This document shows positions 56,679 to 64,000 of a DNA stretch of 64,000 nt, piece by piece. Made by a program: the position numbers and the translations under genes. This stretch comes from Hymenobacter lapidiphilus (GTDB lineage Bacteria > Bacteroidota > Bacteroidia > Cytophagales > Hymenobacteraceae). The stretch's first letter is position 1. Each line of letters opens with the position of its first letter. The stretch lies in assembly GCF_013377885.1 (NCBI RefSeq), contig NZ_JABKAU010000021.1, positions 1 to 64,000 on the forward strand. The letters are read 5' to 3'. The notes beneath the pieces are model-generated. The model searched no databases. It had not been told where the DNA came from and saw nothing but the letters and a program-made list of their open reading frames with translations.

Positions 56679-57779
56679 CTAAGAGTTGCGCCGCCAGATA
56701 AAGCCGTCGAGCACATAATGGGTGGCCTGGGGCAGCGCCAGTAGCGGCACCAGCAGCGTCAAGGCAGCAGAGTCGGCCAGGGCGGGCAGCTGCTGGAACC
56801 AGCCGAATACGGCCGCGTGCTCCCGCCATACCAACCCGTCCCAGAGGCCTTCTTCCAGCAGGGCAAACGCAATCAGGCTGCCCAAAAACAGCAGCACGCC
56901 GTAGCGGCCCTGCCACCAGTTGGGCTGTTGGGCGGCTGGTTTGGAAGCTGGCTTGGAAGCTGACGTCTGGCTACTGATCCAGACCAAAGCCAGATAGGGA
57001 ATGCCGTGGGCCACTACGTTGAGTAGCGTGAACACCAAATCGGCGTTGAACACCACGATGCCCACGTACCAGGAGGCCGCCGTGCCCAGCAGCAACAGGT
57101 TGCGGGGCCAGTTGAGTTGCTTGGTGCGGTGCCATTGCCGCGCCTCTTTCAGCAGGTAAGTCGCTAGTAATCCAAGGTACAGCACCCCCAACAGCAGCCG
57201 GCCGGCGGGCCAGTCGTGCTGCACAAAATCACCCTCGACGAACCAATTGAAATTGCGTGGGGGCGACAAATGCCACCAAAGTAAGGGGTAGAGCGTGGCA
57301 GCGTAAACCAGGATGGCATCGAGGTGGCGGCCGGGGGCTTCGGGCTCGAAACGGCTGTAGAGCCGCAGGAACCCGTATTGCTGCCGGACGAAGTGGAATA
57401 CCGCTGTGTAGGCCAGCACCCGCCAGAACCACAGGCTGCCGCCCAGCGCGTGCAGTCCCACCCCCACCACGTAGCAGCCCAGCGGCACGGCCCAAAGCAA
57501 AGTGCCAAACCGCTGCCGCCGCGCCTTGTCGAAGTAGGTGCGAAACAGCGTGCTGTACACGTGGGCCACATCAATGAGCACCACCAGCCCCACCCAGGCC
57601 CACAGCGGCATGGCCGCAGCCGTCCGCAACGTGGGGGGCAAGGCGGCTACCATCACCAAAGCCAGAAATGGCGGGGCCAGAATCCAGAGCCCATCAAAGC
57701 GGGCCGACCGAATCCAGGGTTGGCTGGCGGCAGGCGGCGGTGGGGCAACGGGAGCAACCGGGGCGGGGTGAGTAAGCAT
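56679..57779 (-). CDS. Polytopic membrane protein with four candidate metal-binding histidines
   Basis: A 366-residue membrane protein with about nine to ten helices. Histidines sit in or near membrane segments: His73 (VAHVYSTLF), His129 (AVFHFVRQQYGF), His258 (VVAHGIPYLALVW) and His354 (QATHYVLDGFIWR). Their spacing recalls membrane metalloenzymes such as the Brp/Blh carotenoid oxygenases or di-iron membrane desaturases, but that is an inference; I do not recognise a family. It begins 30 bases downstream of the FAD-protein stop, at the end of the polyamine-related unit, and so is likely co-transcribed with it. Confidence 0.75.
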   Translation of the reverse strand: MLTHPAPVAPVAPPPPAASQPWIRSARFDGLWILAPPFLALVMVAALPPTLRTAAAMPLWAWVGLVVLIDVAHVYSTLFRTYFDKARRQRFGTLLWAVPLGCYVVGVGLHALGGSLWFWRVLAYTAVFHFVRQQYGFLRLYSRFEPEAPGRHLDAILVYAATLYPLLWWHLSPPRNFNWFVEGDFVQHDWPAGRLLLGVLYLGLLATYLLKEARQWHRTKQLNWPRNLLLLGTAASWYVGIVVFNADLVFTLLNVVAHGIPYLALVWISSQTSASKPASKPAAQQPNWWQGRYGVLLFLGSLIAFALLEEGLWDGLVWREHAAVFGWFQQLPALADSAALTLLVPLLALPQATHYVLDGFIWRRNS

Positions 57780-57809
57780 GGCAGTCGAAAATACGAGGCG
57801 CGGCGGAAG

Positions 57810-59468
57810 TTACGCCGGAGTCGGGCGCCGGGCGGCCTGCACTTCCCGCGCCGCCCGCTGGCCCTGTGCGAAGCCTTCCTCGAAGATCGAGATGCCACTC
57901 AGGTCGGTGTGGGCGAAGAAAAGCTGGTTCTGCCAGGGCCGGGCCGCCGCGGCGCGGGCCCCGCCCCACAGAAAGCCGGGCGTGGGCGCTACCATACCGT
58001 GGCCCCATACCCACACGTCGGCGCGCAAAACCTGGGCCGTGAGGCCGTGGTGGGCAGTTTCCAGCTCGGCCAGCGCCTGGCGCACCCACTCGTCGTAGCT
58101 GGTTTGGTAGGCTTGCCGGCGGGCGGCTTCGGGGCTGGCGTCCGACAACGGCCGGTACCAGGTAACCACCCGCGCGCCGGCATCGGTCTGGCTCAGGCTT
58201 TGGTGGCCGGCATCCACGTAACCCACCGAATCGGTGCCGTAGAGCACATTATCCCAGCTCAGGGGCTGGCCGGGGCCCTGCGGCAGGCCTTCTACAGTGA
58301 GATTGACCACCACCCAGGGCACGCGGTGGACGGGCAGCGGGCGGTGGGCGGCGGCGGGCAGCCCCGCCAGCAACCGCTCGGTAATGAACAGCGGCGTGGC
58401 CATTAGTACTTGCCGGGCCGTTACGCGGGTGGTCTGTTTCGTGGCCACGTCGTAGCAATCCACGGCCAGGCCGGTGGGCGTTTGGTGCAGGGCGAAGGCT
58501 ACCGTATCGGGGCGGATGGAGGACTGAGCCTGCCGACGTAGCTGCTCTACCAGAAAACCGTTGCCGGCCGGCCAGGTCAGCACATCGGCCCCGTTGGCGT
58601 TGTGGGCGCGACCCTTACGGGCGGCAAAGTAGTGTAGCCCCGCCCAGGCCGATACCTGGGCGGCCGTGGCCCCATAATCGTCGCGGCAGCTGTAGTCGAA
58701 GTACCAGCGCAGGTGCGGACTGGTGAAGCCCTGCTCATCGAGCCAGGCAGCAAACGGCTGCTCATCGAGGCGTCGGAACTGCTCATCCTGCGACGATGCT
58801 TCCAACGGAATCACAAAAGCGTCGCGCCCGTCGGTGCCCACTGTCTGGCGCAGTTCCTCGATGAGGGCGAAGAAACGAGCTATCTGTTCCTTTTCGGCCG
58901 GCGGCACGCCTAGTTCAGGCACCAGCCCGTTTTGCCAGTGGCCTTTTATAAAAAGCCGCTCCTCCAGGTCGTGGCAGAGGTAATATTCGTTGTAAATGGG
59001 CAGGTCGGAAGCTGCATCGGTGCCAGTGATAACGCCCGCGTCGCGCAGAAACGCCAGTAGTTCGTGGTTGCGTGGGTCGGGTACGGGCAGGTAGTGGGCG
59101 CCCCAGGGGTAGGCCGATACGCCGTTGTGACCGGCGCGCGAGTTGCCGCCGGGCTGCTCATCCAATTCTACCAGCAGCACCTGCCCGGGTTGCAGCCCCT
59201 GGCGCTCCAGTTCCCGCCGGGCCGTCAGGCCAGCTACGCCGCCGCCCACAATCAGCACTTCTACTGCCTCGGTGCGGGTGGGATCGGGCAGCCGGGCCGG
59301 GTCGCGCAGCAGGTGCCCGGTGGCGTGGTTGGCCCCGTGCATACTGCCTCGGATATGGCTGCGACGGGAGCCCGGCGCGCACGAATGCAGCCCCGCCAGC
59401 GGCGCCAGCAGCAGCCCCGCGCTTCCCATAGCAGCGCGTTGCAGAAAATGACGGCGGGAGGAAGGCAT
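57810..59468 (-). CDS. Tat-exported FAD-dependent amine-oxidase-like protein
   Basis: A 552-residue flavoprotein. Twin-arginine signal (RRHFLQRAAMGSAGLLLAP) with a Cys at LHSC (Cys30), so it may be a Tat-exported lipoprotein. FAD-binding VEVLIVGGGVAGLTARREL (residues 70-88) and GGNSRAGHNGVSAYPWGAHY (about 107-126); the C-terminal FAD contact is near DLSGISIFEEGFAQGQRAAR. Resembles NAD(P)/FAD-type flavin amine oxidoreductases. With the neighbouring spermidine-synthase-like and SpeD-like proteins, an amine or polyamine-type substrate in the envelope is plausible but unproven. Confidence 0.85.
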   Translation of the reverse strand: MPSSRRHFLQRAAMGSAGLLLAPLAGLHSCAPGSRRSHIRGSMHGANHATGHLLRDPARLPDPTRTEAVEVLIVGGGVAGLTARRELERQGLQPGQVLLVELDEQPGGNSRAGHNGVSAYPWGAHYLPVPDPRNHELLAFLRDAGVITGTDAASDLPIYNEYYLCHDLEERLFIKGHWQNGLVPELGVPPAEKEQIARFFALIEELRQTVGTDGRDAFVIPLEASSQDEQFRRLDEQPFAAWLDEQGFTSPHLRWYFDYSCRDDYGATAAQVSAWAGLHYFAARKGRAHNANGADVLTWPAGNGFLVEQLRRQAQSSIRPDTVAFALHQTPTGLAVDCYDVATKQTTRVTARQVLMATPLFITERLLAGLPAAAHRPLPVHRVPWVVVNLTVEGLPQGPGQPLSWDNVLYGTDSVGYVDAGHQSLSQTDAGARVVTWYRPLSDASPEAARRQAYQTSYDEWVRQALAELETAHHGLTAQVLRADVWVWGHGMVAPTPGFLWGGARAAAARPWQNQLFFAHTDLSGISIFEEGFAQGQRAAREVQAARRPTPA

Positions 59469-59511
59469 GGGGTATTGAATAAAGGATTTGGTAGAACAAT
59501 TAACGCGGCAC

Positions 59512-59635
59512 TGTCATGCTGAGCGAAGGCGCAGCCGCAGTCGAAGCATCTCTACTGTAATGGTAATCCAAACGTCATAATTACTAATGCGGTAGAGATG
59601 CTTCGACTGCGGCTGCGCCTTCGCTCAGCATGACA
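59512..59635. repeat. Perfect 44-bp inverted repeat inside the polyamine operon
   Basis: Arms 59512-59555 and 59592-59635 are exact complements (TGTCATGCTGAGCGAAGGCG and onward) around a 36-base loop. It fills the gap between the spermidine-synthase stop and the FAD-protein start in an otherwise tight operon. Member of the GTCAT-C-TGAGCGAAG family seen at 4294, 26869 and 39250. Confidence 0.92.
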
Positions 59636-59662
59636 CCATTTTACTATCAGCCTTTATCAACC

Positions 59663-61255
59663 TTAGTGCGCATACGGGCCCCAGTCTTCCTCGAAATACC
59701 GGACAAGCGCCTGGTTATTGAGCTGGTTGATTTCGGTGGGCACCTCGCTCATGTCGGGCGGGAAGAAGCGCATGTCGCGGATGGTGGCGGGCGTAACGTA
59801 GCGCAGGCCGGGGGGCAGCGGGCCGGCGTCGGGGCGCCAGTGGCTGTTGCGGCCTGCCAATATGAAGCCCCACTCGCCAAACGAGGGCACGTAAGCATGG
59901 TAGGGCAGGGTGGTGAAACCGGCGGCTTCCAGCGTGTGGGCCACGCACCAGAACGAGCGGCGGGCCACGTAGGGCGAAGTGCTCTGCACCACGGCCCAGC
60001 CGCCGGGGGCCAGCCGCTGCTCCAGGGCCCGGTAAAATGCCGCCGAGTAAAGCTTGCCGATGGAGTAGTTGCCGGGGTCGGGGAAATCGACGATGATGCA
60101 GTCGTAGCGGCTGGTATCCTGCCGAATCCACTGGTAGGCGTCGGCGTTGGTTACGCGCACTTTGGGGTTGAGTAGGGCGCGCTGGTTGAGTTCGAGCAGC
60201 ATCTGGTTTTGCTGGAACAAGCGGGTCATGCCCGGGTCAAGGTCCACGAGGTCGATGTGTTCCAGCTGCGGGTATTTGAGTAGTTCGCGCACGGCCAGCC
60301 CGTCGCCGCCGCCCAGCACCAGCACCCGGCGGGCCTTGGGTAGCGCCTGCATGGCGGGGTGCACCAAGGCTTCGTGGTAGCGGTACTCATCGGCCGAGCT
60401 GAACTGCAGGTTGCCGTTGAGAAACAGGCGCAGCTCGCGCTGGTTTTTGGTGAGCACCAGCCGCTGGTAGGGCGTGGTTTTGGTATAAATCACCTGATCC
60501 TGAAACGCCAGCCCTTCGGTGTAGGCCTGCAGTTGCCCGGCGTAGCCAAACGTTACGGCCAGGGCCAGCAGCGAGGCCGCCAGCGCCCCACCGAGGCTGC
60601 GCCGAAAGGGGCGTGTTTCGGGAAAGCGGTACAGCGCAATGCCGGCCACCACCACGTTCAGGGCCCCGCATAGCAGCGACGTGCGGATGAGCCCCAGCTG
60701 CGGTACCAGCACCAGCGGAAACACCAGCGAAGCCAGCAGCGCCCCGATATAATCGAAGGTGAACACCCGCGAAACCAAGTCCTTGAACTCGAAGCGGTTT
60801 TCCAGAATCCGCATCAGCAGCGGAATTTCCAGCCCCACCAGAATGCCCGTTAGGCCCACCAGCGAGTACAGAATCAGGCGGAAAGAGCTGACGTGTTCGA
60901 ACAACAGAAACAGCAGCGGAGCCGAAAAACCGCCCACCAGCCCCACCAGAATCTCCAGCTGAATAAACCAGCGCAGCAGCGAGCCGCCCAAATAGCGCGA
61001 CAGCCACGAGCCGATGCCCATCGCAAACAGATAGGCCCCGATGATGGTGGAAAACTGCAGCACCGAGTCGCCGAGCAGGTAGGAGGCTAGCGTGCCCGCA
61101 ATCAACTCGTAAATCAGCCCGCAGGTGGCAATAACGAACACCGAGCCCAGCAGCAGCGTGGGGCGGTAGTCGAGCGGGGCGGCAGGTAGGGCAGCGGCAG
61201 CCGATGGGGAACCGGATGCCTTCCGCCGCACCCGCCGCACGGGTACTTTATCCAT
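59663..61255 (-). CDS. Membrane-anchored spermidine synthase-like aminopropyltransferase
   Basis: A 530-residue protein with about seven N-terminal membrane helices (residues ~34-245) fused to a spermine/spermidine synthase domain (~250-525). Markers: YQRLVLTKN, LFLNGNLQFSSADEYRYHEAL, SAM-type binding loop VLVLGGGDGL (312-321), DLDPGMTRLF, NADAYQWI, DFPDPGNYSIG (with Asp390 and Asp393, the amine-site acids), and a C-terminal substrate segment. The enzyme transfers an aminopropyl group from decarboxylated S-adenosylmethionine. Membrane anchoring suggests an unusual acceptor. It overlaps the DUF350 gene by eight bases. Confidence 0.9.
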   Translation of the reverse strand: MDKVPVRRVRRKASGSPSAAAALPAAPLDYRPTLLLGSVFVIATCGLIYELIAGTLASYLLGDSVLQFSTIIGAYLFAMGIGSWLSRYLGGSLLRWFIQLEILVGLVGGFSAPLLFLLFEHVSSFRLILYSLVGLTGILVGLEIPLLMRILENRFEFKDLVSRVFTFDYIGALLASLVFPLVLVPQLGLIRTSLLCGALNVVVAGIALYRFPETRPFRRSLGGALAASLLALAVTFGYAGQLQAYTEGLAFQDQVIYTKTTPYQRLVLTKNQRELRLFLNGNLQFSSADEYRYHEALVHPAMQALPKARRVLVLGGGDGLAVRELLKYPQLEHIDLVDLDPGMTRLFQQNQMLLELNQRALLNPKVRVTNADAYQWIRQDTSRYDCIIVDFPDPGNYSIGKLYSAAFYRALEQRLAPGGWAVVQSTSPYVARRSFWCVAHTLEAAGFTTLPYHAYVPSFGEWGFILAGRNSHWRPDAGPLPPGLRYVTPATIRDMRFFPPDMSEVPTEINQLNNQALVRYFEEDWGPYAH

Positions 61256-61463
61256 GAATGGCCGAACTGATAATCAGGGCCACGGCAATCATAAAGGCTG
61301 CCGCCATAATGGCCAGAGCCATGTTGTGCTCCTCGATAATTTCCTTCCAGAGCGTGCCTGGCGTGAGCTTGTCGATGACAAAGAAGCTGAGCATCAGAAT
61401 ACTAATGCCTATCACCGAGTACAGCACCGACGCGATGATGAGCTTGAAGTTGAGGTATTCCAT
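61248..61463 (-). CDS. DUF350 small membrane protein
   Basis: A 71-residue protein with two membrane helices (KLIIASVLYSVIGISILML and ALAIMAAAFMIAVALIISS), joined by a Lys/Glu-rich turn, matching half of the DUF350 (YjfL-like) family. Its function is unknown; the family is found in gene clusters with DUF4178 and polyamine-related enzymes. It overlaps the aminopropyltransferase gene by eight bases, indicating translational coupling. Confidence 0.88.
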   Translation of the reverse strand: MEYLNFKLIIASVLYSVIGISILMLSFFVIDKLTPGTLWKEIIEEHNMALAIMAAAFMIAVALIISSAIHG

Positions 61464-61467
61464 TTTT

Positions 61468-61617
61468 GGAGGAGCTAGGAGTTAGAAGCCAGAAGCTAGA
61501 ATCGGGAGGGCAAGTATGGAGTGGCAGAAGTGATGGACGGGAAGACAAGCAAGGCGCGAGGGGTGGCGAGACAGCACGAACGACTTCTAGCTTCTGGCTT
61601 CTAACTCCTACCTCCTC
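61468..61617. repeat. Inverted repeat between the 63-aa gene and DUF350
   Basis: Arms 61468-61503 and about 61585-61617 share GGAGTTAGAAGCCAGAAGCTAGAA and its complement around an 80-base loop. It fills nearly the whole gap between the two genes of the operon. The core resembles GAGTCAGAAGCGAGAA at about 4269, just ahead of the 4294 repeat. Confidence 0.8.
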
Positions 61618-61624
61618 AAGAGAA

Positions 61625-61816
61625 TCATTTATGAAAGTACATGACCCGGCCGCGGGAGCCGCCGGTTCTGGCGGTGCCGTTGCGGTTGGGCTCGGCCTCG
61701 TTGTCGTCGCCGAGCAGGCGGTGGCCCGAGAGGCTGGCCCACATGAAGACGCTGTACACCAGCACGGCAAACAGGGCGTAAAAACGGATTTTCCAGAGGG
61801 AGCGGAACCAGTCCAT
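61625..61816 (-). CDS. 63-residue single-helix membrane protein
   Basis: A 63-residue protein with one membrane segment (KIRFYALFAVLVYSVFMWASL, residues about 9-29) and a charged Gly/Arg/Asn-rich C-terminal tail. It lies 21 bases after the DUF4178 stop on the same strand and is separated from DUF350 by a palindromic repeat. Function unknown; the operon position suggests a small accessory component of the membrane complex. Confidence 0.65.
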   Translation of the reverse strand: MDWFRSLWKIRFYALFAVLVYSVFMWASLSGHRLLGDDNEAEPNRNGTARTGGSRGRVMYFHK

Positions 61817-61837
61817 GCGGCGGTGGGAGAAGGTGTA

Positions 61838-63166
61838 TTAGGAGGGGCCGAAGTCGGAGTTCTGCCAGCGGGTGTGTTCGTGCGATGCCCGGCGGAGGTA
61901 TATGTAACCGGGATACAGCAGCAGCAGCAACAGCGTCAGCACGGCATTGGAGCCGGCTGTGGCGCGGGCCTGCACCGTAGCCCGGAACGCTACCTGCTCG
62001 GCTTTGCCGGGCTCGGCGAGCGGGTAAAAGTTGAGGTGATACTGGCCGGCCGGAACTTCGTTGAGCAAGGTGGCGGCCTCCTGCTTGCCTTCCTGCCAGC
62101 TTTCACCGTCTTCCACGCCCGAGTAATGCTCCAGGTTGGTGCTGGCCGCAAATTGCTGGCCGGTTTGCTCGTTCACCAGCGCGTAGGGGATTTCCACCCA
62201 GCTATTGTTCAGGCCGGCCCACAAATCCACGGTAAGCGCGCCGGTGCCGGGCACCGTGAACGAGGGCGACACCAGCATCGGCCGCTCAGTGGCCGGCGGC
62301 AGGAACGAGGAGCCTGAGTCGGCTATACCAGATGATGGCCCGGCGACGGAGCTGATGAACTCCTGTTTGAATACAGTTTCATTGCCCCACTTCATCAGAA
62401 ACAAGTGAGTGAGTACCACTACCAAGGCCATTACCAGCGAAAACGTGCGCAGTTGGTCCCAGCTTCCGTGAGCCGGTGCCGGTTGCGCCGCCCCCACGCC
62501 GCTGCGGTAGGGGAGTTGCGCCAGAGGTACCCCGAAGGCTTCGGCTACCTCGCGGGGCTCCAGGTGTCGGGCCCGAAACCAAGAGCCTTTCTTGCGGCCA
62601 ACCCGCTCGCGTACCAGCATGTGGGGCGGGCTGATGTATTCTGAAATATTCAGGCTTTCGTCGGCCAGCACGTTCCAGTCGAACTCGCCCTCGGCGTACA
62701 GCACCCGGGGTGAATAGCGGTTGTAGAGGTGAAAATCCTGCTCGGTGGTGGCAAGCACACCCTGCGAGTTGGGCCTGAATTGCTCGTCGGTAGGCTCAAT
62801 CAGCAGCCAGTGGCCCTGGAACACGGCCAGTTGGCGGGCGGATCCGGTAGTTTCGTGGCGGAGCTGAAATTCCTCCCAGCGGTAGTCAGGCCCTTTGGCT
62901 TCACAACGCCATTGATAGCCCGTAATGCGGTAGGTTTCGCCATCCAGCTGGCCGGAGCTGCCCAGCGCCAGCGGCCGGTTATAGGTTGGTTGGTCTTGGA
63001 AGCGGCGCAGCTGCTTGGCCGCCTGGGTTCCGGGTTGCTCAAAGAAAGTGCGGCACTCGGGGCAGCCAAAAAAGTTGCTCTGCTGGGTATCGAAGTAGCG
63101 TACCTCGTGGCTGCAGTGGGGGCAGCGCACGGCGGCAGGGGCAAAGGTGGTAGCGGCCTCGTTCAT
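61838..63166 (-). CDS. DUF4178 protein with N-terminal zinc ribbon and membrane tail
   Basis: A 442-residue protein. N-terminal zinc ribbon with Cys15-x2-Cys18 and Cys35-x2-Cys38. DUF4178-like beta region follows (about 75-215), including GYQWRCEAKGPDYRWEEFQL and EGEFDWNVLADESLNISEY. A membrane helix lies at about 240-257 and a second near the C-terminus (LLLLLLYPGYIYLR), with an extracytoplasmic domain between. Its ATG overlaps the stop of the upstream SpeD-like gene by four bases (ATGA), so the two are translationally coupled. DUF4178 has no known enzymatic role; links to polyamine-type genes recur. Confidence 0.85.
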   Translation of the reverse strand: MNEAATTFAPAAVRCPHCSHEVRYFDTQQSNFFGCPECRTFFEQPGTQAAKQLRRFQDQPTYNRPLALGSSGQLDGETYRITGYQWRCEAKGPDYRWEEFQLRHETTGSARQLAVFQGHWLLIEPTDEQFRPNSQGVLATTEQDFHLYNRYSPRVLYAEGEFDWNVLADESLNISEYISPPHMLVRERVGRKKGSWFRARHLEPREVAEAFGVPLAQLPYRSGVGAAQPAPAHGSWDQLRTFSLVMALVVVLTHLFLMKWGNETVFKQEFISSVAGPSSGIADSGSSFLPPATERPMLVSPSFTVPGTGALTVDLWAGLNNSWVEIPYALVNEQTGQQFAASTNLEHYSGVEDGESWQEGKQEAATLLNEVPAGQYHLNFYPLAEPGKAEQVAFRATVQARATAGSNAVLTLLLLLLYPGYIYLRRASHEHTRWQNSDFGPS

Positions 63167-63516
63167 CGGCGTACCTCAGTTTTTTGCTGCTCGGTGGCCC
63201 CAAAAAAAGCCAGGGTAGCGGCGTACAGCGCCTGGGCCCGGTCGGCATTATCGCGCCGGAAATTGCTCAGGAACACATCGAAGGTAGCCAGGCCGTGCTC
63301 GGGCCAGGTATGAATGCTCAGGTGCGACTCGGTGAGGGCCACCACAGCCGTGAAGCCGCCTTCCTCGAAGCCGTGGTAGGCCGCGCCTACTGCCGTGAGG
63401 CCCTGCGCGGCAACCTGGGCCTCGAAGAACGTTCGGCAGGCTTCCATATCCCGTAGGGCAGCTTCGGGAGCCGTAAACGTAGCCAGAATGTGAAGCCCGG
63501 GGGCGTAAGAATCCAT
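63163..63516 (-). CDS. S-adenosylmethionine decarboxylase-like (SpeD/SpeH) protein, catalytic Cys replaced
   Basis: A 117-residue proenzyme of the bacterial small-subunit type. Self-cleavage Ser64 is present in LTESHLSIHTWPE, with His69 and the following Glu. The position equivalent to the catalytic Cys (DVFTCG in family members) reads DVFLSNF, giving Ser84 instead of Cys. A normal product would be decarboxylated SAM for aminopropyl transfer. The start is ATG 63516; a longer frame from a TTG at 63522 adds two residues. First gene of the operon; a near-consensus -7 box (TATCTTTC) lies at 63561. Confidence 0.85.
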   Translation of the reverse strand: MDSYAPGLHILATFTAPEAALRDMEACRTFFEAQVAAQGLTAVGAAYHGFEEGGFTAVVALTESHLSIHTWPEHGLATFDVFLSNFRRDNADRAQALYAATLAFFGATEQQKTEVRR

Positions 63517-63605: not shown

Positions 63606-64000
63606 TTACTTGGCCGGTGGGGCCAGGGCCTGAATCCAGCTGCGAATGGCATCGAGGGCGGCCGTGGAGACTGCCGGAGACTGCCGGCCGTCGATAAGTG
63701 GCCACTCATTGGCCGGACCCTGAAACAGGTGGTTTACGCCAGCCAGCTGGCGGCTTTCGACTAGTTTGGTGCCCTTCAGGCCCTTCGTCAGCAGGCTGAG
63801 ATTAACGTCGGGGCTAAGCAGCAAATCGTCGGTGCCGTGCAGCAGTAGCACCGGACACTGCACCGCGGCCAACTCCTGCTGAGGATAAAAGCGCAGGTAC
63901 GACCGGGTCCAGGGCGTAGTGAGGCGGTCGGCTACCGTAGCGTAGGCCGAATCGGGCTGGTTGGGCCGTTGCGTCCGTAGTGCCTGTAGCAGCAGGTCGC
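63606..64000 (-). CDS. Alpha/beta hydrolase, C-terminal part (cut by window edge)
   Basis: The minus-strand frame runs off the right edge. Its visible part reads RSYLRFYPQQELAAVQCPVL and onward with LLHGTDDLLLS, VNHLF (probable catalytic His) and a helical C-terminus. The 'P-V-L-x-x-H-G-x-x-D' strand fits the acid-bearing end of an alpha/beta hydrolase. The nucleophile is outside the window. It lies upstream of and co-directional with the SpeD-like gene; the ~90-base gap is AT-rich enough for a separate promoter. Confidence 0.7.
   Translation of the reverse strand, partial: DLLLQALRTQRPNQPDSAYATVADRLTTPWTRSYLRFYPQQELAAVQCPVLLLHGTDDLLLSPDVNLSLLTKGLKGTKLVESRQLAGVNHLFQGPANEWPLIDGRQSPAVSTAALDAIRSWIQALAPPAK

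Follow-up and report, generated by a model that had tools for sequence, protein, structure and literature searches.

The window analysed here (64,000 nucleotides, part of the 72,928-base contig NZ_JABKAU010000021.1 of Hymenobacter lapidiphilus) carries, between positions 56,679 and 63,516, seven minus-strand genes for a SpeD-like decarboxylase, a DUF4178 protein, a 63-amino-acid membrane protein, a DUF350 protein, a membrane-fused spermidine synthase (7TM-SpeE), a flavin adenine dinucleotide (FAD) protein exported by the twin-arginine translocation (Tat) route and a polytopic membrane protein. The seven genes are a conserved unit and not a chance grouping, because their order and strand are identical in all nine genomes that carry a close polytopic homologue. 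The likeliest aminopropyl acceptor, in a reading to which we give slightly less than even weight, is encoded in the operon itself: the C-terminal lysine of the 63-amino-acid protein, which has been overlooked previously and is put forward here as the candidate. We tentatively propose, with the same measure of confidence, that the product of the operon is a peptide tail, anchored in the membrane, whose last residue bears a polyamine tip. The basis for this is the conservation of the genes, a rule governing the tail ends, a match between exceptional tail ends and ligase genes, the finding of SpeD and SpeE nowhere else in the genome, and the predicted topology of the proteins, from which we infer the chemistry.

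Conservation of the seven genes

A phylum sample of 296 genomes was searched with the polytopic protein at E ≤ 0.001, with E < 1e-70 defining a strong class. Matches were obtained in 15 genomes, nine of which, including that of the window, fell into the strong class. All nine, from four families, have the six profiled genes in the same order and on the same strand, with a small open reading frame (ORF) between the DUF4178 and DUF350 genes; in the six weaker genomes the polytopic gene alone was matched and no other operon gene. A collection-wide scan with an alignment of the polytopic protein returned at least 588 stretches, at least 522 of which encode a relative, and the best 80 were analysed. 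These came mostly from Bacteroidota, together with metagenome-assembled genomes labelled Leptospiraceae, Verrucomicrobia, Cyanobacteria and FCPU426 and one Bryobacterales genome, and the polytopic gene has its closest named relatives in Hymenobacter (H. actinosclerus, 82% identity in the best segment).

Profiles recovered the full seven-gene order in 41 of the 80 stretches, and a further 16 miss only the small-protein or the DUF350 match. The other 23 show duplicated or split DUF4178 genes (often with no SpeD match), order swaps between overlapping ORFs, two absent matches or contig edges. The survey therefore bears out, in the nine close homologues and in these further loci, the view of the preliminary description that the genes belong together in related genomes. 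The real exceptions among the 80 are L106 (L and G numbers are our handles for loci and genomes), with the polytopic gene alone, and L048, from Hymenobacter sp. BT559, where only the FAD gene (a shorter ORF of 443 amino acids) and the polytopic gene were present within 20 kb, as might be left by a decaying operon.

The last residue of the tail protein

The 63-amino-acid protein (61,625–61,816, minus strand) has one transmembrane (TM) segment, located close to the N-terminus, together with an acidic stretch and a variable G/S/R/H-rich tail that ends in MYFHK, that is, in -HK-COOH. Every one of the 59 homologues found with a hidden Markov model ends in HK. Counted by locus, over 83 SpeE loci made up of nine from the first genome sample and 74 from the polytopic scan, the HK end was present in 82 of 82 that could be assessed (75 by an automated filter and seven by other inspection). 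L019 and L097 are apparently the same genome, L074 starts inside SpeE at a contig edge and has no tail slot, and six loci with no SpeE match in the stretch (L042, L048, L055, L102, L106 and L110) were left out. On the opposite strand the same filter passed 55 ORFs, none of which ends in HK, and the background among 1676 ORFs of at least 250 amino acids in long loci was 163 ending in K, nine in HK and 17 in GK.

More distant loci fill the tail slot with dissimilar proteins, namely single-TM peptides, lipoproteins and a DUF4178 fusion. The Ctha_1186-like lipoproteins, which are not recognisably related to the 63-amino-acid protein, end in GK in five of five cases. L134 has no small gene, and its DUF4178 fusion carries the tail and ends in SGSHK, while the tails of L129, L133 and L131 end in HYHK, YHHK and PSFGK. 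On plasmids, tails taken from six of the 13 records with a match to the window's SpeE end in SHK (Novosphingobium), HGK (Gemmatirosa), SHK (Burkholderia), RVK (Tritonibacter), SGK (Ensifer) and SGK (Alteromonas).

A fairer sample consisted of the 22 of 296 genomes in which the transferase family NF002956 scored over its cut-off; 18 of these had been examined earlier, and the last four were added after the Lys rule had been formed. All 22 loci encode a membrane-anchored tail. Twenty end in Lys, with L161 (QHK) and L162 (YHK) fitting the rule, and two (L163 and L164) end in Gly-Gly, which the rule did not predict. The residue before the terminal Lys also follows a pattern, in that His at this position tracks the FAD gene: HK or HGK ends were found in 88 of 88 assessable FAD loci against two of 11 Lys-tail loci without one. 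No description of Lys or Gly-Gly tail ends was found among the best-ranked matches of a literature search that covered few subscription journals.

Gly-Gly tails and ligase genes

In both L163 and L164, a single-TM protein ending in RSYGG adjoins a GSP_synth ATP-grasp protein (PF03738, E = 3.1e-81 and 9.9e-76) and SpeD, and 7TM-SpeE is divergent. A profile scan of 110 loci found a YgiC/YjfC homologue in only these two loci and two Escherichia coli regions. RefSeq names YgiC and YjfC peptide--spermidine ligases, and YgiB (beside YgiC) and YjfM (beside YjfC) both end in GG; the E. coli yjf operon also has DUF350 and PspA. We know of no assigned role for the DUF1190 proteins of ygiBC and yjf. With ligase presence judged within the 11–20 kb stretch of each locus, not the whole genome, the 20 Lys-ended loci have no ligase homologue and the two GG-ended loci have one (Fisher 0.0043, relatedness uncorrected). 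GG-ended neighbours were found at 10 of 14 YgiC/YjfC-type loci, comprising the two of E. coli and eight homologues; the 12 plasmid loci in this set were hand-picked from 40 listed among 164 records with a YjfC match. The ORF beside the YjfC homologue of Arthrobacter (L154, 3592–4269) is partly annotated as a tRNA-dihydrouridine synthase, ends in GGGGHGG and looks like a GG-type tail.

The two kinds of tail end can be compared chemically. Spermidine joined to a C-terminal carboxylate via its aminobutyl end and an aminopropylated Lys would share the same -(CH2)4-NH-(CH2)3-NH2 end, which argues by analogy for Lys as the acceptor. As regards membership of the window itself in the YgiC/YjfC ligase system, no YjfC homologue was found in the window or the contig flank, and its tail ends in HK.

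SpeD, SpeE and the polyamine supply of the cell

The SpeD-like protein (63,163–63,516, minus strand) is a pyruvoyl decarboxylase of the S-adenosylmethionine (AdoMet) decarboxylase family. Judged against SpeD of class 1b, it matches PF02675 (E = 5.6e-22; 78.6 bits against a cut-off of 25), keeps the ESH cleavage motif and scores below the TIGR03330 cut-off (72.8 vs 75.65). The catalytic Cys of SpeD acts as proton donor, and in the window protein it is replaced by a Ser, aligned with the Cys of 2iii and 1tlu. Among 84 readable operon SpeDs the donor position is Ser in 67 and Cys in 17; the Cys-bearing proteins include our families f6 and f7 and plasmid copies, and their activity may differ.

Polyamine genes were surveyed in 12 genomes: nine with the full operon, two with the core only or the core and the FAD gene, and the operon-less congener G072. 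SpeD was present as one copy, at the operon, in 11 of the 12, and the same 11 have one strong SpeE match, likewise at the operon (six have extra weak short matches); G072 has neither. In the genome of the window, the operon's SpeD and SpeE were the only copies found. Homospermidine is probably the main polyamine of Hymenobacter, although the literature searched gave no paper stating this. A gene of the deoxyhypusine-synthase family (SpeY-type, PF01916) was found in 12 of 12 genomes, whether the operon was present or not, and enzymes of this type are used for homospermidine according to the portion of PMC10407285 consulted. Housekeeping spermidine synthesis is an unlikely purpose of the operon, because SpeD and SpeE occur only in the operon while the SpeY-type gene is in all 12 genomes. 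The operon is thus apparently not the polyamine supply of the cell, in agreement with the preliminary description. A carboxyspermidine route was rejected as well: nspC/CASDC scored over its cut-off in none of the 12 genomes, and weak matches in seven were set aside as probable LysA-like decarboxylases. In five members of one family (G222:C18, G206:C1, G245:C23, G174:C22 and G289:C54), PF01564-like ORFs of ∼225–240 amino acids were observed ∼4–12 kb from the PF01916 gene.

Since the donor Cys is a Ser, SpeD may instead be a neofunctionalised arginine or ornithine decarboxylase, as treated in the same partly consulted source (PMC10407285). A point against this possibility is that the SpeE of the operon would need decarboxylated AdoMet (dcAdoMet), and that this is the sole SpeD found in the genome.

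Transferase and membrane topology

The 7TM-SpeE protein (59,663–61,255, minus strand) combines a membrane domain resembling half of an MFS transporter with an aminopropyltransferase domain. It exceeds the curated cut-off of NF002956/PRK03612 (671 vs 472 bits, residues 31–526) and keeps the catalytic motifs GGGDG and DxxDP, so that aminopropyl transfer is its predicted activity. Loop charges in 74 aligned homologues are strongly asymmetric, with mean K+R of 1.97, 4.07 and 3.39 in the loops assigned to the inside and 0.00, 0.05 and 0.08 in those assigned to the outside, and the seventh TM segment is predicted to place the catalytic domain outside. TM2 is only moderately hydrophobic, and the topology flips if one of the seven segments is not genuine. 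By the same charge criterion, the 63-amino-acid protein is N-in and C-out, with a basic far tail. Transferase, tail and Tat-exported flavoenzyme would, as predicted, share a compartment.

The DUF4178 protein (61,838–63,166, minus strand; PF13785, E = 1.6e-14) consists of N-terminal CxxC pairs, the DUF4178 domain, a TM segment, an outer domain and a second TM segment; the TM and charge profile of 70 sequences places the DUF4178 domain in the cytoplasm. The DUF350 protein (61,248–61,463, minus strand; PF03994, E = 2.1e-14) is of the short form, with two hydrophobic segments taken as TM.

The flavoprotein and the polytopic protein

The FAD protein (57,810–59,468, minus strand) had been described as a Tat-exported, amine-oxidase-like protein. 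Its export signal and fold are upheld by the homologues and the structure model. The Tat-like N-terminus is kept ([RK]RxF in 59 of 74 proteins). After the hydrophobic stretch, 71 of the 74 have a Cys, and position -1 is G, A, S or N in 70 of these, as in Tat lipoproteins. NAD_binding_8 and DAO scored above cut-off; PF01593 gave no match with the window protein and matched 55 of 60 alignment members at E ≤ 0.01. Profile matches include amine oxidases and SpdH, the best being 2b9w, which we take to be a fatty-acid isomerase. The model (mean predicted local distance difference test score, pLDDT, 91.1) has 8p84 as its best Foldseek match (E = 8.5e-23) and resembles the folds of monoamine oxidase, protoporphyrinogen oxidase and spermidine dehydrogenase. 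Flavin amine oxidases of the MAO/PAO type have a flavin-facing Lys, and no Lys was found at invariant columns or at columns conserved at ≥ 90% in 60 homologues. An oxidase is not favoured because of this, and a dehydrogenase or other chemistry would be as likely; the name amine oxidase is therefore not established.

The polytopic protein (56,679–57,779, minus strand), like the 63-amino-acid protein, has no Pfam or NCBIfam match above cut-off. Its conserved features are D70-x-x-H73, H129 with Q133-Q134, H258-G and H354-Y-x-x-D358. The preliminary description named four candidate metal-site histidines and, if these are the four of the conserved pattern, they are fully conserved: H73, H129, H258 and H354 are invariant in 74 sequences, as is H170. 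A role in binding heme or iron would be speculation from the conserved His residues. The 74 homologues gave scattered weak Pfam matches (best E = 0.0045), no PDB profile matched, and the model (pLDDT 90.9) gave no Foldseek match at E ≤ 0.001 in the PDB and viral sets. The best VIA-align row (Z 6.5, root-mean-square deviation 4.9, 168 residues aligned) lies within the tool's common-arrangement range for helical bundles, and a rhodopsin-like fold was not accepted on rows in this background range. A distant stand-alone family (L026–L031, ORFs of ∼380–450 amino acids) keeps the D-x-x-H, H-x-x-R-Q, H, H-Y-x-x-D pattern; none of the other six operon genes lies beside these relatives, and we found no function for them.

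Layout of the operon, core and accessory genes

All seven genes are ORFs at the positions first reported, with gaps in transcription order of -4, 21, 161, -8, 194 and 30 bases. The ATGA overlap and the 8-bp overlap noted previously were recovered as the first and fourth of these, and the tight spacing claimed for the operon holds at four of six junctions but not at those of 161 and 194. The 194-bp gap between SpeE and the FAD gene is atypical, because the median in relatives is -4 (72 related loci, ≤ 50 in 48 of them, with starts chosen by script). Directly upstream of the SpeD gene, on the same strand, an alpha/beta-hydrolase-like gene was recognised by eye (63,606–64,000).

DUF4178 was found in 12 of 296 genomes, three of which overlap the earlier set, and the nine further loci show three layouts. 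One (L126–L128, L130 and L132) has a short DUF4178 protein, a Ctha_1186-like lipoprotein and 7TM-SpeE, adjoined by PspA and CesT in L126, L128 and L130, not in L127 or L132, and with a long DUF350 in four of the loci; this is the Ctha_1186-lipoprotein/7TM-SpeE operon type described by Ravi et al. (2024; PMC11237479, consulted in part). Another (L129 and L131) consists of SPFH/band-7 operons with two DUF4178 genes, DUF350, 7TM-SpeE and SpeD, one of them with the FAD gene. The last is the Bacteroidota core, in which L134 has the FAD gene but no polytopic gene and L133 lacks both. On a Novosphingobium plasmid, the locus has SPFH, two DUF4178 genes, a 48-amino-acid protein, DUF350, SpeE, FAD and SpeD.

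Wherever the slot is intact, the examined loci contain SpeE and a tail protein. DUF4178, DUF350 and SpeD are commonly but not universally present: L163 and L164 have no DUF4178 or DUF350 match, and DUF350 was not matched in L132 or L144 either. The FAD and polytopic genes had been counted as members of the system; they do belong to the conserved set, but are accessory, being present or absent around SpeE. Both are absent in L133 and L161, the FAD gene occurs without the polytopic gene in L129, L134, L142, L143, L144 and L162, and among the examined loci no polytopic gene was found beside SpeE without the FAD gene. The core of SpeD, DUF4178, DUF350 and 7TM-SpeE belongs to an operon group already described, at least in the parts of Ravi et al. 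(2024) consulted, which confirm the envelope-stress neighbourhoods that the preliminary description drew from comparative genomics (PMC11237479).

Homologues of PspA, CesT, SPFH, YjfC and Ctha_1186 were not found in the window or contig flank (phmmer, E ≤ 0.01), and the same PspA and CesT queries do match three of the five Ctha-type loci. A class-level search with Ctha_1186 matched two of 98 genomes, both already in the set, and added no new member; among phage records none matched the 7TM query over 80% of its length; and a Phyllobacterium "fused MFS/spermidine synthase" (L160) was left out of the counts, the partner names being absent from its annotation. Other observations at these loci are a "toxic anion resistance protein" gene adjoining DUF4178, SpeD and 7TM-SpeE in the Alteromonas plasmid operon (L147, 11,551–12,657), with a possible link to Ter-type stress, an ion-transport-family gene (PF00520) inside the operon of L132 (9007–9801) and a GYF_2 domain in the band-7 protein of L131 (14,712–15,827).

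Proposed mechanism and alternatives

In the mechanism that we propose, SpeD would make dcAdoMet, from which 7TM-SpeE would move the aminopropyl group onto the invariant Lys at the C-terminus of the 63-amino-acid protein, at its epsilon-amine. As the Lys side chain corresponds to the aminobutyl half of putrescine, the product would carry a -(CH2)4-NH-(CH2)3-NH2 tip, and YgiC/YjfC-type ligases would build the same tip on GG-ended tails through the attachment of spermidine. As membrane partners, the DUF4178 and DUF350 proteins may serve either the transferase or the supply of the donor. In the weakest step, the FAD protein would oxidise or otherwise tailor the tip beyond the cytoplasmic membrane, with its polytopic partner perhaps relaying the electrons. 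The preliminary description had an aminopropyl group placed on an envelope acceptor and then oxidised; this fits the anatomy of the operon, with the acceptor now refined to the C-terminal Lys of the 63-amino-acid protein and the reaction still a matter of prediction. More broadly, two convergent enzymes could make one polyamine tip, the ligases on Gly-Gly and 7TM-SpeE on Lys, giving N-epsilon-(3-aminopropyl)lysine that a Tat-exported flavoenzyme would process further in the His-Lys subclass, a generalisation we consider somewhat less likely than not.

Several points weigh against a Lys acceptor. The Ser in place of the donor Cys and the score under the TIGR03330 cut-off make the AdoMet activity of SpeD uncertain, and no SpeD was detected nearby in 13 of 98 tabulated loci. 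By charge, the SpeE domain and the tail lie outside, where dcAdoMet would need to be exported, perhaps via the MFS-like half. The distant tails were found by eye or by seeking Lys-ended membrane ORFs near SpeE, and with ∼10% of long ORFs ending in K (163 of 1676) a distant case carries little weight by itself. Most of the FAD loci behind the His-Lys pattern (82 of 88) are relatives from the polytopic-protein searches. L163 and L164 combine 7TM-SpeE with a ligase and a GG tail and show no DUF4178 or DUF350 match, so that SpeE may make a free polyamine there. Finally, four of the 14 ligase loci have no GG neighbour, the ends being CCG, SGS and ASS with none found at one locus, where for the last (L158) and for ASS (L156) only ORFs of at least 90 amino acids on the ligase's strand were considered.

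The membrane fusion of the transferase, the Tat-exported flavoenzyme and the envelope-stress context of the relatives would equally suit a 7TM-SpeE that aminopropylates a lipid or another envelope molecule. The Lys-ended protein would then be a recruitment or assembly subunit with its last residue as a docking signal, an invariant C-terminus being as apt for docking as for modification. However, this would leave unexplained why dissimilar slot proteins share a G/S/R-rich tail and last residue, and why K switches to GG together with a peptide-spermidine-ligase homologue, and we regard it as rather unlikely. That the system makes a polyamine (spermidine or an analogue), free or exported, close to the membrane, to be sensed or tailored by the other proteins, seems unlikely too: SpeE retains its motifs, its NCBIfam family is named polyamine aminopropyltransferase and the ligase of L163 and L164 would need spermidine, yet all 12 genomes carry a SpeY-type gene, whether they have the operon or not. 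Moreover, Li and co-workers (Biochem J, 2019) reportedly found such AdoMet decarboxylases, accompanied by an MFS-spermidine synthase fusion and DUF350, to be active, with spermidine absent from the strains and the fusion unable to replace a deleted SpeE. Least probable, and in our estimation distinctly unlikely, is that the FAD and polytopic genes form a separate pathway of lipid or carotenoid-like redox chemistry, only co-regulated with the aminopropyl core. Their accessory distribution, the lack of a Lys conserved at ≥ 90% in FAD homologues and the best profile match to the presumed isomerase 2b9w would agree with this, but the FAD gene overlaps or abuts SpeE in most relatives and the His-Lys end tracks its presence.

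A modified tail remains our preferred, if tentative, reading. Aminopropylation of other substrates is spoken of by Ravi et al. (2024; PMC11237479), and the conserved, operon-encoded C-terminal Lys gives membrane-fused spermidine synthases a testable acceptor candidate, and the pattern of tail ends links 7TM-SpeE operons to the ygiBC and yjf operons of E. coli. If the proposal is true, polyamine biology would gain a new protein modification and a function in the envelope.

Comparison with known systems

The operon of the window shares 7TM-SpeE, DUF350, DUF4178 and an extra membrane-anchored protein with the PspA-CesT/7TM-SpeE operons, as far as these are described in the consulted parts of Ravi et al. 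(2024; PMC11237479). There the extra protein is the Ctha_1186 lipoprotein, whereas the window has neither this nor the PspA-CesT dyad, and has instead the polytopic protein and the short one with the HK tail, neither of which was found in these parts. The FAD protein has the amine-oxidase fold and an N-terminal profile alignment in common with the spermidine dehydrogenase SpdH of Pseudomonas, but only 14% identity in the structural match. The system of Li and co-workers likewise is said to pair SpeD with a membrane-fused SpeE and a non-putrescine acceptor; unlike here, no acceptor candidate was reportedly named.

The yjfIJKLMC and ygiBC operons of E. coli, like that of the window, encode beside a polyamine enzyme a G/S/R-rich tail that is anchored in the membrane and has a fixed C-terminus, and yjf shares DUF350 as well. 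They differ in having an ATP-grasp ligase and a GG end where the window has SpeE and a Lys end. Hypusine and the polyamine-lysines of silaffins also carry a polyamine on a lysine side chain, but are made by other enzymes, and the modification proposed here would fall on the C-terminal Lys of a membrane peptide. The related bac operon of Pseudomonas affects biofilm formation, according to the part of PMC10948618 consulted.

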